Both the position numbers and the translations under genes were made by a program. A stretch of 37,663 nt of DNA from Desulfonatronovibrio sp. (GTDB taxonomy: Bacteria; Desulfobacterota; Desulfovibrionia; Desulfovibrionales; Desulfonatronovibrionaceae). The DNA lies in NCBI GenBank assembly GCA_003566455.1, contig PXDF01000093.1:1-37663 (forward strand). The letters run 5' to 3'. The notes beneath the pieces are model-generated. The model was not told where the DNA came from. It did no database searches and was given only the letters and a program-made list of their open reading frames with translations. Shown piece by piece: positions 3,213 through 36,094 of the stretch; within the stretch, counting starts at the first letter, position 1; the number at the start of each line of letters is the position of its first letter.

Positions 3213-4040
3213 CTAAGGCCAGACTTCAATTTTATCAGTCATTGGAAAATAATATGGAGTGTCCGGTCCGTACCATTTATTATAGATTTGCATATAGGTT
3301 CCATCCAGCCACATATCCTGCAGAGCGAAGTTGATGGAGTCACGCCATGCTGAATCATCCTCAGGCAGGCCGATTCCATAAGGTTCTTCGCTTATGAAGT
3401 CACCCACCAGCTCCCATTTGCCAGGCTCCTGGGCCGCGTAGCCAAGGAGAATTGTGCTGTCAGTGGACCATCCGGCAACGCTTCCCAGCTTCAGGGCCTG
3501 AAAGGCTTCTGATTCCCTCTGAAAGGAGATTACGTTTCGTTCATAGTTGGGATCACCAAGCTCTTTGAGCAGGTTTTTGATGTTGATTTCAGAAGTAGTG
3601 CCCTGCATGGTGGCGATTCTTTTGCCCACGAAATCCTCATGTTTTTTATACTGTCCCACAGGGGCCAATATTTTCTGACCATCAAAAAAGTAAGTGATGG
3701 AAAAGTCAATAACCCGGTCTCTTTCCCTGGTATGGGTCATGTTGGCCACGGACATGTCAATGCGGCCCTGCTGGACAAAAGTTATCCTTGTTCGGTTGGT
3801 GCACTGTACCCTTTCAATGTCCACGCCCAGTCTTTTAGCAACTTCCTCGGCTATGTCCACGTCAAAACCGACCCATTCGTTCTTGTCATTGAAAAAAGCT
3901 CCCGGAATGGAGTCGGTCATCATACCCACCCGGACAACTCCCGATTCCATGACCCTGTCATACGTCGGTCCGGCAACCGCCAGCTGGGTTGAAAGCATGA
4001 GCGCTGCCAGGGCCAAAGCAAAAATTTTCCAAAAACGCAT
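3213..4040 (-). CDS. Periplasmic amino-acid-binding protein of an ABC transporter
   Basis: A 275-residue secreted solute-binding protein (SBP_bac_3 family). I choose the ATG at 4040, not a longer in-frame start at 4082, because an AGGAGG (4049-4054) stands 8 bases before it and the protein then opens with a clean signal peptide (MRFWKIFALALAALMLS, cleavage after AVA). The block CTNRTRITFVQQGRIDMSVA and the following THTRERD are typical of glutamate/aspartate-binding members. It delivers its ligand to the fused permease encoded next, with the ATPase encoded just upstream. Confidence 0.92.
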   Translation of the reverse strand: MRFWKIFALALAALMLSTQLAVAGPTYDRVMESGVVRVGMMTDSIPGAFFNDKNEWVGFDVDIAEEVAKRLGVDIERVQCTNRTRITFVQQGRIDMSVANMTHTRERDRVIDFSITYFFDGQKILAPVGQYKKHEDFVGKRIATMQGTTSEINIKNLLKELGDPNYERNVISFQRESEAFQALKLGSVAGWSTDSTILLGYAAQEPGKWELVGDFISEEPYGIGLPEDDSAWRDSINFALQDMWLDGTYMQIYNKWYGPDTPYYFPMTDKIEVWP

Positions 4041-31933: not shown

Positions 31934-32365
31934 ATGCAAGCAGCACGTGAACAATTCTTTAATTATCTAGCCAAAAAAAAGTTAAAGTTTACTACACAGC
32001 GGGCTCTGATTTTTGATGTTTTCTGGCAGGTTGAGGAACACATCTCCCCGGAAGAACTTTACGGTCTGGTCAAAAAAAAGGACCCTTCCATAGGCCAGGC
32101 CACTGTATACCGCACTCTTAAGCTTCTTTCAGATTCCAAGATAGCCAGAGAAGTGGACTTTGGTGATGGTGTGACCAGATATGAGCCTTATTTCGGACAA
32201 AGCCACCATGACCATCTTATCTGCAAAGAATGCGGCAAAAGCGTTGAAGTCGTGGATGAAAGGATTGAAAAACTGCAGGAAAAACTGGCCGCGAAGCATG
32301 GTTTTATTCTGAGCGGACACAGCATGTACCTTTATGGCCACTGCAAGGAATGCTCAAAAAAATAA
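31934..32365 (+). CDS. fur: Fur-family metal-dependent repressor
   Basis: A 143-residue regulator with an N-terminal winged helix (KFTTQRALIFDVFWQ, SIGQATVYRTLKLLSDS), the metal site HHDHLICKECG and a second C-terminal CxxC (GHCKECSKK) that would hold structural zinc. With Fe(II) bound such proteins repress iron-uptake genes. Fur is favoured over PerR or Zur because the next 5 kb carries feoAB and several Fur-box-like palindromes. This is inference from context; the sequence alone does not fully separate the subfamilies. Confidence 0.88.
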   Translation: MQAAREQFFNYLAKKKLKFTTQRALIFDVFWQVEEHISPEELYGLVKKKDPSIGQATVYRTLKLLSDSKIAREVDFGDGVTRYEPYFGQSHHDHLICKECGKSVEVVDERIEKLQEKLAAKHGFILSGHSMYLYGHCKECSKK

Positions 32366-32442
32366 TTTCTTGACAAAATAAAGCTAATATGCTTGATCAA
32401 TTTTCAAAGTCAAATCTATTGACTTTTTTATTGTTTTTAAAA

Positions 32443-32485: not shown

Positions 32486-33037
32486 ATGAGCTGGATCCCT
32501 TCCGCTGTAGCTGTCTGGGAAAAAATCAGCAGTTCTTCAAAGATCCTGACCTGGCTATACTCAAGGCCATATCGTGGGGTGCTTGAAAATGAGATCACTC
32601 TGGCAGGTCTTCACAAAAATGATATAATTTTAAATATCGGTTGCGGAGCCGTGCCTTTCACTGCGCTTTATCTGGCCACCCTGGTCGGAGCCAAAGTCTA
32701 TGCCGTGGATATTGATCCCATGGCCGTCAGGCTGGCCGGGAAATGCGTTGAAAAAGCAGGCTTGTCCCACAGAATAAAAGTGATCGAGAAAGACGGTGCG
32801 AAAACTTTTGATTTTCCCTTTACAGCTTCTGTCATCGCTCTGCAGGCAGCCCCAAAAAGATTGATTCTGGACGCGGTAAAAAAAGCAGCCCTGCCCGGTG
32901 CAAGGTTTATTTTCAGGCTGCCCAGTTCTCCATACAAGGATCATTACGAAAGCCTGTCCACTGACCTGCCGCCAAGAGCCATATCCCCTCAGCCCATGCG
33001 GACCTTTGATCGCTCTGTGCTTTATGTGAACGCGTAA
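32486..33037 (+). CDS. Short nicotianamine-synthase-like methyltransferase-fold protein
   Basis: A 183-residue protein with a Rossmann-like SAM-binding core: ILNIGCGAVPFTALYLA (residues ~48-64), then VYAVDIDPMAVRLAGKCV, and a distal strand-helix block GARFIFRLPSSPYKDHYE. The pattern GCGxxPxTALxLA plus xDID and a late RxP/S-Y segment resembles nicotianamine synthase (plants have VGSGPLPLTSIVLA) more than ordinary methyltransferases, but the N-terminal helical domain of NAS is missing. It may transfer an aminocarboxypropyl group from SAM, or be a plain methyltransferase; this is pattern recognition, not proof. It has AGAGG before the ATG and a Fur-box-like site in its promoter. Confidence 0.65.
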   Translation: MSWIPSAVAVWEKISSSSKILTWLYSRPYRGVLENEITLAGLHKNDIILNIGCGAVPFTALYLATLVGAKVYAVDIDPMAVRLAGKCVEKAGLSHRIKVIEKDGAKTFDFPFTASVIALQAAPKRLILDAVKKAALPGARFIFRLPSSPYKDHYESLSTDLPPRAISPQPMRTFDRSVLYVNA

Positions 33038-33058
33038 TAAGCTTTTTTGTTCAAGATT

Positions 33059-34081
33059 ATGAAAAAAATAATTCAAATAGTTCTGAGCATTGGAGTCCTG
33101 GCCGCGCTGATCATACTTTTCAATCCTGAGGAAATTACCATACTCCTTGCCGGAATCACACCCCAGTCTCTCATGATTCTGTTTTCCCTTCAGCTGCTCA
33201 CTCTGATGGCCGGGGCCTGGATATGGTATTACCTTCTCAGCCGTCAAAGCAAAATATCCTTTACCTGGGTCTTCATCATCAATCAGGCGGCTGGACTGGT
33301 GGAAAGCCTGACTCCTTCGGTAAAATTCGGTGGCGAAGCGGCCAAGATCTATCTTTTCAGAAAAATTTCAGATCAGACTTACCAAGGCCTGACCGGGACG
33401 CTCATGGTCCACAAATTTGTGACCATGTTTCCCTTTACACTGCTTTGCCTGCTGATTTTTTTCCCTTCTTTGTACTATTTTGATCTCCCTGTCTTTTCTG
33501 TTGCGGTTCTGATCATGGTTCTGGCCATGTGTTTTGTTCTTGGCTGGCTCTGCTATGGAAAATCCGGAAAAGACCCGCTTCCTGGAAAGCCCGGCAACAC
33601 TGGAAATAACAGACCGAAATCCCTGAAAAATATCTTCACATCCAGACAGTGGATTTTGAAAACAGTCAGTTTTCTGAACCAGGCAAGAAACTCTGCTTCA
33701 GGTCTGCTGACCTTTGGAGAAACCAGGAATATTCTTCTTGTTTCATTTGCAATCTGGGTCCTTTATCCCATCAAGGTTTTTCTGGTCTGCATTTTTCTGG
33801 GCATTGAAGTCAGCCCGGTCATCATCGGGCTGGCCACACTTTTTGCCTATATGGTCAGCATGGTTCCACTTCTGCCCGGTGGACTTGGAACCTACGAAGG
33901 AAGTATGGCCATGTTTTTTACCCTTGGCGGACTCAGTCCGGCTGAAGGTCTGGCCATATCCCTGGTTTCCAGGCTGACCACATTCTGGTTCCCTCTGGCC
34001 CTGTCCGCCCTGGCCTGCGCTGCCCTGTGCTGGAAAGACAATCTGATCAAAGACAGGGAGCAGGCACGGCAGGCTGCTTGA
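33059..34081 (+). CDS. Flippase-like membrane protein (UPF0104 / LPG-synthase membrane domain)
   Basis: A 340-residue integral membrane protein with about eight helices. Conserved family features are INQAAGLVESLTPSVKFGGE near residue 85, YLFRKI, and the late block MVPLLPGGLGTYEGSMAMFF followed by RLTTFWFPL. The family is the membrane part of lysylphosphatidylglycerol synthases and related YbhN/AglD proteins. I use the ATG at 33059; a TTG at 33047 is possible. It follows the first NAS-like gene by about 20 bases, so the two are probably one operon; an export role for that gene's product is speculation. Confidence 0.82.
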   Translation: MKKIIQIVLSIGVLAALIILFNPEEITILLAGITPQSLMILFSLQLLTLMAGAWIWYYLLSRQSKISFTWVFIINQAAGLVESLTPSVKFGGEAAKIYLFRKISDQTYQGLTGTLMVHKFVTMFPFTLLCLLIFFPSLYYFDLPVFSVAVLIMVLAMCFVLGWLCYGKSGKDPLPGKPGNTGNNRPKSLKNIFTSRQWILKTVSFLNQARNSASGLLTFGETRNILLVSFAIWVLYPIKVFLVCIFLGIEVSPVIIGLATLFAYMVSMVPLLPGGLGTYEGSMAMFFTLGGLSPAEGLAISLVSRLTTFWFPLALSALACAALCWKDNLIKDREQARQAA

Positions 34082-34257
34082 AAAAATTCCCTGCCGGATT
34101 TAAACTTTTATTGCTAACATCGGACAAGGTGCTTCTTGATTGGGGACCAGACCTGAAAAGGCATGATGCCAGGATCTGATATCCACCCATTTCACGTCAT
34201 GCACACTTTGAACAGGAATATGCGGGGTATATTAAATGACATGTTTTGAATAAGTTG

Positions 34258-34353
34258 TCATTGATCATCCTTTTCCGGGCCCAAGCAGGCTTTCTGCTTT
34301 CCCGGGCTGAAGCCCTGCCTGATCAGACGGATCAGCCTTGCGTACTCTTTCAT
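34258..34353 (-). CDS. Micro-ORF, 31 codons
   Basis: An ATG at 34353 opens a 31-codon frame (starts MKEYARLIRLIRQGFSPGKQ), rich in Arg and Lys with an acidic tail. AGG lies 9 bases upstream. It begins 23 bases after the stop of the neighbouring 23-codon ORF and may be co-transcribed with it. No homolog recognised. Confidence 0.4.
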   Translation of the reverse strand: MKEYARLIRLIRQGFSPGKQKACLGPEKDDQ

Positions 34354-34376
34354 TGTTTCGGACCTGCGTTGGCGGC

Positions 34377-34448
34377 CTAATAAATTTCATTTCTGAGTTT
34401 CTGGCTCTGCCTGCTGTTTAATCCACCCAAGCTGACTTTCATCACCAT
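34377..34448 (-). CDS. Micro-ORF, 23 codons, behind a Fur-box-like site
   Basis: An ATG at 34448 has a strong AGGAG (34457-34461) 8 bases upstream and encodes a 23-residue basic peptide (starts MVMKVSLGGLNSRQSQKLRN). A Fur-box-like palindrome lies 29 bases upstream, between a possible -35 (TTAACA) and the Shine-Dalgarno. It might instead be the 5' part of a decayed gene continuing into the 31-codon ORF. Confidence 0.45.
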   Translation of the reverse strand: MVMKVSLGGLNSRQSQKLRNEIY

Positions 34449-34473
34449 GTTTTTTTCTCCTTTGTTATTCTGC

Positions 34474-34497
34474 TATTGACTTTCAAAATCAATATTA
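34474..34497. promoter_or_regulatory. Fur-box-like palindrome upstream of the minus-strand micro-ORFs
   Basis: TATTGA (34474-34479) and TCAATA (34489-34494) are exact inverted repeats, with inner TGACTTT/AAAATCA forming a 7-1-7 repeat with one mismatch. It shares the run CAATATT with the site at 32443. Confidence 0.6.
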
Positions 34498-34657
34498 AGG
34501 GTGGTTCATATTGTTAAGAAAAAAATATCATTTTGTACTCATCCTTGTAAAAATTTACCCTCCATACACCTTATTTAGACCTGAACAAATTATTACATAA
34601 CTCATTGAATTTAATCATTAAGCGACCATAACAAAAGATGATGGCCTTGATTGTAAT

Positions 34658-34678
34658 TGATCTTGAAAATAAATATCA
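34658..34678. promoter_or_regulatory. Fur-box-like site upstream of the 68-residue secreted protein
   Basis: By my count 16 of 21 positions match the classical Fur consensus (TGAT at 34658-34661, TTGAAAAT at 34663-34670, TATCA at 34674-34678). It lies just before TTGACA at 34685-34690, a likely -35 element. Confidence 0.6.
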
Positions 34679-34734
34679 AAATTGTTGACAAGTCGTTTTT
34701 ATTTATTTAAACGCTTTTCAACTGTCCATGGTTT

Positions 34735-34749
34735 TGAAATTCATTTTCA
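34735..34749. promoter_or_regulatory. Second Fur-box-like site before the 68-residue secreted protein
   Basis: TGAAATT-C-ATTTTCA is a 7-1-7 inverted repeat with one mismatch, matching 12 of 15 consensus positions. It is placed downstream of the likely promoter and 55 bases before the start codon. Confidence 0.5.
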
Positions 34750-34803
34750 TTTAAACTGGTAGCCCGAATAATATACGGATTTTTCTAAAAAGGAGGTTTA
34801 ATT

Positions 34804-35010
34804 ATGAAGAAGCAGTATTTTTCAGCGACTGTGTTGTCTATGGCTCTGTTCATGCTGATTTCGGCCAAAGCCTTTGCACACTGCGTCCGGGCCAAGCTCC
34901 ATCCCCTGGGAATGAGCCTCTCCCCTTCAACAACAAATATACGCGGGGTCAAATTCAGGTTGTCATTATCAGTTCACAAAAGATTAAATGTTTCTTCAGT
35001 AACCTTATGA
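34804..35010 (+). CDS. Small exported protein coupled to the second NAS-like gene
   Basis: A 68-residue protein with a convincing signal peptide (MKKQYFSATVLSMALFML, cleavage after AKAFA) and a short mature part of about 43 residues that starts HCVRAKLHPLG and has no recognised fold. AAGGAGG stands 7 bases before the ATG. Its TGA overlaps the ATG of the next gene (ATGA). The reading frame of that next gene is open all the way back through this region, so a frameshift after HPLG would join the signal peptide to a different tail (NEPLPFNNKYTRGQ). It may be a genuine small secreted protein or the start of a decayed larger one. Confidence 0.6.
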   Translation: MKKQYFSATVLSMALFMLISAKAFAHCVRAKLHPLGMSLSPSTTNIRGVKFRLSLSVHKRLNVSSVTL

Positions 35011-35630
35011 AAATATTTCAGCAAGCCAGGACTTCAAGCTGTTCCCCATCGAACAAATTTTCTTTGCCGGTTGACCGCTCATTATTAAAGTCGGTTATAC
35101 TTCTGGAGAATCTTGGAGTGTCTATGCCCAGGCTGGGCAGAGCTTATTCAAGGCTGTTCTACGAGAACATGCTGGAAAAAGAATTCGGCCTGTCCGGCAT
35201 AGCTCCCGGAATGAAGGTCAAGCACGTGGGATGCGGCCCTTTTCCAATGACCGCCATGTTTCTGGCCCGAAAAGGAATCAGAGTGACTGCCGTGGATTTG
35301 GACCATGGCATCCTTGGCCGGGCTCAAAAAGTCATCAACAATAACGGCCTGCAAAACAGAATCAGGCTGCTTGAGTCCTGCGGCACTCAACTGGACTATT
35401 CCGGGTACAGCGCTATCTGGCTGTCACTTCATGTCAGCCCGATGAACAAGATCGTTCAACGCGCCCTGAAATTCATGGATCAAGACGCGAGAATAATTTT
35501 CCGGGCACCACGGGGTAAACTTTCCATGTTCTATAGGGAGTTAAACCCGGAAAATTTGTCCGGAAAAACTACGTGGATGCAGATTCGCCAGCCTTTTGGG
35601 AAAAAAAGTATTATGTTGAAAAAAGCTTGA
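35007..35630 (+). CDS. Second nicotianamine-synthase-like methyltransferase-fold protein
   Basis: A 207-residue protein related to the one at 32486. Motif I is VKHVGCGPFPMTAMFLA (residues ~71-87), followed by VTAVDLDHGILGRAQ and a distal DARIIFRAPRGKLSMFYRE. The order GCGPFPMTA, then acidic loop, then a C-terminal strand with R-A-x-R and Phe/Tyr closely parallels plant nicotianamine synthase (GSGPLPLT ... MLRSAHALRAFLYP). Both paralogs also share Y-S-R and an L-E-x-E block just before motif I. It starts on the stop of the signal-peptide gene (ATGA) and is followed by Fur-box-like sites and feoAB. Enzyme activity is unproven. Confidence 0.65.
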   Translation: MKIFQQARTSSCSPSNKFSLPVDRSLLKSVILLENLGVSMPRLGRAYSRLFYENMLEKEFGLSGIAPGMKVKHVGCGPFPMTAMFLARKGIRVTAVDLDHGILGRAQKVINNNGLQNRIRLLESCGTQLDYSGYSAIWLSLHVSPMNKIVQRALKFMDQDARIIFRAPRGKLSMFYRELNPENLSGKTTWMQIRQPFGKKSIMLKKA

Positions 35631-35672
35631 CATTTTTTAAAAAATACTTTTTGATAATTACATTCAAAGTCA
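35627..35672 (+). promoter_or_regulatory. feoA promoter region with Fur-box-like site
   Basis: TTGACA (35627-35632) overlaps the stop of the preceding gene. A 21-bp site at 35652-35672 begins TGATAAT and ends GTCA, with 15 of 21 matches to the Fur consensus by my count, and covers the expected -10 area. Confidence 0.55.
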
Positions 35673-35707
35673 AACCGCAAGTTTGGCTTTTTATAAAACA
35701 TCCTGGA

Positions 35708-35728
35708 TGAAATTGAAAATCAATGCTG
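35708..35728. promoter_or_regulatory. Second Fur-box-like site before feoA
   Basis: The core ATTGAAAATCAAT (35712-35724) is a near-perfect palindrome identical in its centre to the site at 32446-32460. It lies 54 bases before the feoA start. Confidence 0.6.
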
Positions 35729-35782: not shown

Positions 35783-36094
35783 ATGTTTAGACAATGGTTT
35801 GGACGAGGCGGGCCTTGTAATAACTGCCAAAAACCTCAGTCATCTTTAAATCAGGACAGGACCCTTGATTGTCTGCAACTCAATGAAACAGGAGAAATTG
35901 AAGCTGTTCCAGCTGAGGTCCTGCTGGAAGCCCTTGGATTCAGACCTGGCAAAAGAGTATGCTTGAGATGCCGGACACGTTTCGGAGGTCCGGTCATAGC
36001 CGAAATTGAAGGCCGGCATACAGCTTTGGGAAGAGACCTGGCCCGGAGAATCCGAATCAGGAAGAACTGCTGCCCATGTCCGGAAAATGAATAA
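35783..36094 (+). CDS. feoA: FeoA-domain protein with extra Cys clusters
   Basis: A 103-residue cytoplasmic protein. Residues ~30-93 form the SH3-like FeoA domain (ALGFRPGKRVCLRCRTRFGG, IEGRHTALGRDLARRIRIR), which assists FeoB in Fe(II) uptake. Typical FeoA is about 75-85 residues; this one has an N-terminal extension with C12-N-N-C15 and a C-terminal C96-C97-P-C99, which could bind iron, zinc or an Fe-S cluster. AGGAG lies 8 bases before the ATG. Its 3' end overlaps feoB by 8 bases. Two Fur-box-like sites stand upstream. Confidence 0.88.
   Translation: MFRQWFGRGGPCNNCQKPQSSLNQDRTLDCLQLNETGEIEAVPAEVLLEALGFRPGKRVCLRCRTRFGGPVIAEIEGRHTALGRDLARRIRIRKNCCPCPENE

Follow-up and report, generated by a model that had tools for sequence, protein, structure and literature searches.

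Two very short open reading frames follow one another on the minus strand of the window (the whole stretch of 37,663 nucleotides analysed here), behind a promoter-like element, a Fur-box-like palindrome and a ribosome-binding site. An earlier note on this DNA, made without database searches, had suggested that they could encode small peptides of the iron response, likely iron-responsive, or be frames carried by accident on an iron-repressed small RNA. The question is what these two frames are and where they come from.

Two micro-ORFs in an iron locus

On one side of the locus is fur (31934-32365, PF01475) and on the other feoA (35783-36094, PF04023), both assigned to their families by Pfam. 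A feoB-like frame containing GPPNVGKS, recognized by eye, begins at about 36087. The order of elements proposed earlier, from TTAACA through the Fur-like palindrome and an AGGAG at 8 bases to a 23-codon ORF and, 23 bases further, a 31-codon ORF, was confirmed at the following coordinates.

34512..34517, minus strand: -35-like hexamer TTAACA; the aligned place reads TTGACA in G001, G002, G004 and G016
34494-34489, minus strand: -10-like TATTGA, 17 bases from TTAACA
34476..34492, minus strand: Fur-box-like 17-bp near-palindrome TTGATTTTGAAAGTCAA, overlapping TATTGA; an aligned element is present in relatives
34457..34461, minus strand: ribosome-binding site AGGAG, 8 bases ahead of the ATG; relatives have GGAG-type counterparts
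34377..34448, minus strand: micro-ORF 1, 23 aa, very probably the N-terminal part of a broken small gene, closed by an in-frame TAG at 34379-34377
34258..34353, minus strand: micro-ORF 2, 31 aa, very probably the C-terminal part of the same broken gene, in a different frame

The gap between the two ORFs measures 23 bases, and both deduced peptides are indeed basic, with a calculated pI of 10.3 for ORF 1 and 9.5 for ORF 2.

Also located between fur and feoA are two SAM-methyltransferase-like genes (32486-33037 and 35007-35630), one on either side of an LPG-synthase-like membrane gene (33047-34081), and the same methyltransferase / LPG-synthase-like / methyltransferase arrangement is found in G001 and G002. 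The similarity of the two methyltransferase-like genes to nicotianamine synthase (PF03059) amounts to 23.7 bits in one case, below the family's cut-off of 27.1, and to 33.4 bits in the other, above it. A nicotianamine-like metallophore route involving these genes is conceivable.

One small gene in relatives, two probable fragments in the window

Genomes are designated here by number: G000 is the source genome of the window, G001, G002 and G004 belong to the same genus (g1), and G009 and G016 to a second genus of the same family (g2). When the ORF region was searched as DNA against 41 genomes, it matched G004 with 69% identity over 181 bases (E = 5.4e-11) and G001 with E = 7.9e-5. In these two genomes, and also in G002, G009 and G016, the matching gene is a single intact ORF of 58-61 residues (58 in G001 and G004, 61 in G002), along which the micro-ORFs match end to end, ORF 1 covering the N-terminal half and ORF 2 the C-terminal half. 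The copies of G009 and G016, distant from that of G004 (21% and 19% identity), were first noticed through their position ahead of a DUF2325 gene; a profile made of the three same-genus copies recovers them with 27.3 and 21.9 bits, respectively.

The reverse searches lead to the same two places. With the G004 protein alone as query, the two halves were recovered at E = 9.2e-5 and 4.9e-4. A profile of all five copies finds in G000 only two abutting matches, 34448-34365 (profile positions 1-28, E = 4.8e-6, with one TAG inside) and 34365-34270 (positions 29-57 of 58, E = 6.7e-7). Within the window, this profile scores 33.5 and 28.6 bits on the two halves, the next match reaching 5.3 bits and the best of 50 random windows 10.9, and the three-copy profile scores 33.3 and 32.6 bits. 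DNA alignments located two lesions in the window copy: a TAG in place of a sense codon of the intact copies and, shortly past it, a one-base frame change. The ATG of ORF 2 aligns with an internal Met codon of the intact copies of G002 and G004. With no single open reading frame left, the window copy is a relic and not a working member of this small-gene family.

When the two halves are read apart and compared with G004, the 39 codons show 8, 6 and 15 differences at codon positions 1, 2 and 3; dN and dS are 0.20 and 0.93 for the first half, and for the second half dN is 0.14 and dS saturated (G016 was not part of this comparison). This pattern points to a gene that has probably stopped coding only recently, and it would also fit continued translation of both halves. 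Taking these results together, we are confident that the micro-ORFs are what is left of a single gene, now decayed, which encoded a basic protein of about 58 residues, one half in each frame; this gene appears to have lost its DUF2325 partner, and its counterparts in relatives are probably controlled by Fur.

The partner is a constant feature of the intact copies. In all five, the distance from the small gene to the start of a DUF2325 gene (PF10087) downstream is -1 to 12 bp. Such a gene is absent directly downstream of the window copy and was not found elsewhere on this contig (best E = 0.45) or in the G000 assembly. Four of the five intact copies (G001, G002, G004 and G016) are also preceded by a promoter layout of TTGACA, 17-18 bases and TATTGA or similar, with an overlapping palindrome; a pattern scan for this layout was negative in G009. 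In the family, 18 genomes were compared: five carry DUF2325 and an intact small gene, and two, G000 and G015, have a broken small gene and no DUF2325 match; G007 has a DUF2325 lacking the IGGMDRL motif and no small gene, and the remaining ten have neither. As these genomes are incomplete and related to each other, the co-occurrence is suggestive only. The second broken copy (G015, L135:333-497) matches the family over about 37 residues, where the match ends. It sits behind a split frame that looks DUF4198-like by eye and gave no Pfam match.

A profile search of 348 genomes of the class returned nine with a match, namely the seven already mentioned and two weak ones (G205, E = 2.3e-4; G259, E = 0.001). 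The intact small protein is a lineage-restricted and unnamed protein, paired with DUF2325 and probably under Fur control. In family f4 (L029, L030, L039 and L044), a different small ORF, cysteine-rich and with an RIYFKGKNG start and a CKC-type end, lies upstream of DUF2325.

The proposal that the window encodes two basic peptides of the iron response, each translated on its own and ORF 2 by re-initiation, agrees with the ribosome-binding site ahead of ORF 1, the AGG ahead of ORF 2, the Fur-like box and the codon-position bias retained in both halves. However, relatives encode one protein of 58-61 residues across both frames in all five intact copies, of the 348 genomes searched, none of the others that match clearly has the two-ORF form, and the start of ORF 2 corresponds to an internal codon in G002 and G004. 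Nor did the conservation upstream of feo loci that the earlier note proposed to look for appear: the feo loci fetched from G001, G002 and G009 gave no profile match to the small gene, and the intact gene of these genomes is located away from feo, beside DUF2325. Together with the stop and the shift of frame that interrupt the window copy, this leaves the proposal hardly any credit. Another reading is that the Fur-boxed promoter drives an iron-repressed small RNA whose ORFs are incidental; this would account for the promoter layout and the Fur-like box, and transcription of the relic is possible. Against it, a covariance-model search of 34080-34810 gave no match to an Rfam family up to E = 1, the folding is no better than that of shuffled sequences (z = 0.57), and what relatives conserve is a protein with codon-position bias. 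We regard a small RNA as very improbable.

A more mundane explanation is that the organism has an intact gene and that errors of sequencing or assembly produced the stop and the frame change. The assembly is a draft of 245 contigs (96.5% complete, 4.4% contamination), so that a base error could have caused a lesion and the absence of DUF2325 outside this contig is less than certain; moreover, both halves are still coding-like, and the promoter layout and the ribosome-binding site are retained. Nevertheless, an error would have to explain two lesions of different kinds at a place where DUF2325 is missing downstream and not found in the assembly, with the tail of a PIN-domain gene close behind. 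We consider this explanation improbable and, on the grounds of the two different lesions and the loss of the partner, infer that the lesions in the assembly are biological. Decay of a single gene is thus the reading retained below.

Fur-like sites and the interval that holds the relic

Rodionov et al. (2004, PMC545781) give the delta-proteobacterial Fur box as the 17-bp sequence WTGAAAATNATTTTCAW and, for Desulfovibrio, describe tandem boxes in which two boxes are shifted by 6 bp. We built a matrix from 36 published delta-proteobacterial sites chosen from part of Table 3 of that paper; several weak overlapping sites were left out, and three weak sites resembling the palindrome of our locus were kept in. 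With this matrix, the palindrome scores 14.3 bits, for a training minimum of 13.9, and is the sixth best site in the 37,663 bases. In first-order random windows, sites of at least 14.3 bits number 0.55 on average, with no more than 4 in any of the 40 windows; within 70 nt of local composition, the score of the palindrome is reached with p = 0.0017 (0.0019 in a repeat). When the three weak look-alike sites are removed from the matrix, the palindrome falls to 12.0 bits and to the eighth rank (p = 0.0047), and the training minimum, now 14.6, is no longer reached. Because the score depends on the choice of training sites, we regard the palindrome as a plausible but weak Fur box, for which control by Fur is predicted with moderate support. 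The equivalent site of G001 scores 11.5 bits, and in both G001 and G004 the two best Fur-like sites are 6 bp apart.

Five Fur-like sites of the window score higher, from 16.2 to 23.7 bits (34734, 34663, 35651, 35707 and 32442). Four of them lie within 34663-35723, in the same iron locus, and the fifth, at 32442, is behind fur; they are probably the control sites of the fur-feo cluster. The iron response suggested for the micro-ORFs is upheld in part: the Fur-like site detected by the matrix, the layout common to four of the five intact copies and the fur/feoA locus speak for it, whereas the site itself falls below the training minimum once the three look-alikes are left out.

Fur-like sites are also frequent ahead of the partner gene. 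Thirty DUF2325 loci were fetched from relatives, of which 21 contain the IGGMDRL motif and nine lack it. A Fur-box-like site is present within 330 bp upstream in 17 of the 21 IGGMDRL loci vs 46 of 773 control windows from the same loci, at a threshold of 13.9, which is the training minimum obtained with the window composition and the matrix including the three weak sites. If the flat-composition training minimum of 14.7 is used instead, the count becomes 16 of 21 (G002 drops), the control figure of 46/773 belonging to the threshold of 13.9. The four loci below threshold score 12.3 (G001, which has the intact pair), 10.9, 10.7 and 2.5. With boxes upstream of 17/21 loci against 46/773 controls, an iron role for the DUF2325 domain becomes testable.

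The relic itself is placed in an interval that is far shorter in the feo loci of two same-genus relatives, G001 and G002. The features of this interval are the following.

34082..35006: interval holding the relics, 925 bp, from the LPG-synthase-like gene to the second methyltransferase gene
34102..34179, plus strand: relic of a PIN-domain gene, its C-terminal tail, lying downstream of the broken small gene
34804..35010, plus strand: 68-aa ORF with a signal-peptide-like start and an AHC motif, candidate truncated DUF4198 gene

Measured between the starts of the longest ORFs, the same interval is 38 bp in the feo locus of G001 and 27 bp in that of G002, which thus lack the stretch of ~0.9 kb. 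Positions 34112-34199 are 91% identical over 88 bases to a sequence of G012, where the ORF encodes a PF01850 protein. The 68-aa ORF resembles by eye the PF10670 protein of G001, in which a DUF4198 gene (PF10670) lies at most 5 kb from the small gene; in addition, it gave a weak match of 23 residues (E = 0.06) to an ORF of G009 that has no Pfam match itself. ORFs with an AHCIW-type start are found near the small gene in G009 and G015, likewise with no Pfam match. Judged by these sequences, the 68-aa ORF is possibly the start of a truncated DUF4198 gene; it is preceded by the Fur-like boxes at 34734 (23.7 bits) and 34663 (19.6 bits). The interval would then hold three remnants, the PIN tail, the broken small gene and the possible DUF4198 start.

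The simplest account of these remnants would be a relocation into the fur-feo cluster followed by ongoing decay. A fragment of a small-gene locus would have come to lie inside the cluster, between two of its genes; the small gene would then have acquired the in-frame TAG and the one-base frame change, and DUF2325 would have been lost; the PIN-domain tail is now seen downstream. The order of these events is our reconstruction.

Beside the intact pair of G001, and on the same strand (L013:6910-9774), is a group of genes encoding a PHA_gran_rgn-like protein, an HMA_2 protein and a P-type ATPase of 699 aa, which we take to resemble parts of ferrosome fez-type clusters. This lead was dropped, as the best G000 match to the ATPase is 33% identical and the insert contains no clear trace of the group (best match HMA, E = 0.023). 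In G006, a P-type ATPase (C311:281-2305) with 36% identity to the G001 enzyme is encoded some 1 kb ahead of a FeoA-like match (3278-3517).

Proposed role of the intact pair and comparison with known systems

In the intact unit, the small gene comes first and DUF2325 second, behind a sigma-70-like promoter whose -10 region is overlapped by the Fur-like palindrome. Given this overlap, Fur-Fe(II) would probably repress the unit, which would be expressed when iron is short, and the frequency of Fur-like sites ahead of the IGGMDRL-bearing DUF2325 genes adds support to this; the relic may still yield a non-productive transcript. The pairing with DUF2325 suggests that the small protein could act as a helper of the DUF2325 protein.

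Comparisons with known families say little about the small protein. There was no Pfam or NCBIfam match up to E = 1 for the two of five copies tried, nor any PHROGs match up to E = 0.1 for all five; among PDB sequences, only the GCN4 coiled coil was returned (E = 0.11). ORF 2 alone gave DUF7688 at E = 0.13, under that family's cut-off. The structural model of the small protein has two helices and a mean pLDDT of 65, which is too weak for a fold search. The DUF2325 protein (pLDDT 85) models as a Rossmann-like fold, its best matches being a designed Rossmann protein, CpaE and a PTS IIB domain, with E just under 1e-3. Matches of the DUF2325 profile to three RecA fusion chains (E = 5.5e-6 to 1.8e-4) were set aside as chance from repeats, as no single stretch passes.

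A bolder proposal, which we put forward only tentatively and hold to be somewhat doubtful, is that the pair forms an undescribed iron-starvation module controlled by Fur. In this module, the lineage-restricted basic protein of 58 residues, predicted with low confidence to be a helical hairpin, would bind and tune the Rossmann-like DUF2325 protein, the two genes would be kept or lost together, and the window would preserve a fossil of the module moved into the fur-feo cluster.

The locus provides a clean example of adjacent micro-ORFs which, in spite of their promoter-like element and ribosome-binding site, are very probably fragments of one broken gene, and surveys of small ORFs are exposed to misreading broken genes as micro-ORF pairs. 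A literature search on split ORFs found no paper. Our results also draw attention to the small protein, as yet unnamed, that is encoded with DUF2325 behind Fur-like boxes; some related soda-lake bacteria keep it intact, and in the window genome it is a relic.

We had initially presumed that the small gene and DUF2325 correspond to genY and genZ of D. vulgaris. This name was abandoned because the descriptions of these genes in the parts of PMC545781 consulted are those of different proteins, genY being a two-domain protein and genZ a TPR protein of 100 aa. The two cases have in common that they are uncharacterised Fur-boxed delta-proteobacterial genes, and a literature search for DVU0303/DVU0304 found no papers. 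The palindrome of the window, a plausible but weak Fur box, resembles the 17-bp box of the delta-proteobacterial Fur regulon of PMC545781, whose parts considered here describe no small gene beside DUF2325; within the limited literature searched, the pair appears undescribed.

A further comparison is offered by Cj1384 of Campylobacter jejuni, an uncharacterised DUF2325 protein of 104 aa which, according to the sections of PMC9426514 drawn on here, is regulated by PerR and RacRS and strongly induced by violet-blue light. Cj1384 has the same domain as the partner of the intact copies, a domain that was not found in the window or in G000. The regulators are different: PerR and RacRS are those reported for Cj1384, whereas the probable regulator of the intact pair is Fur.
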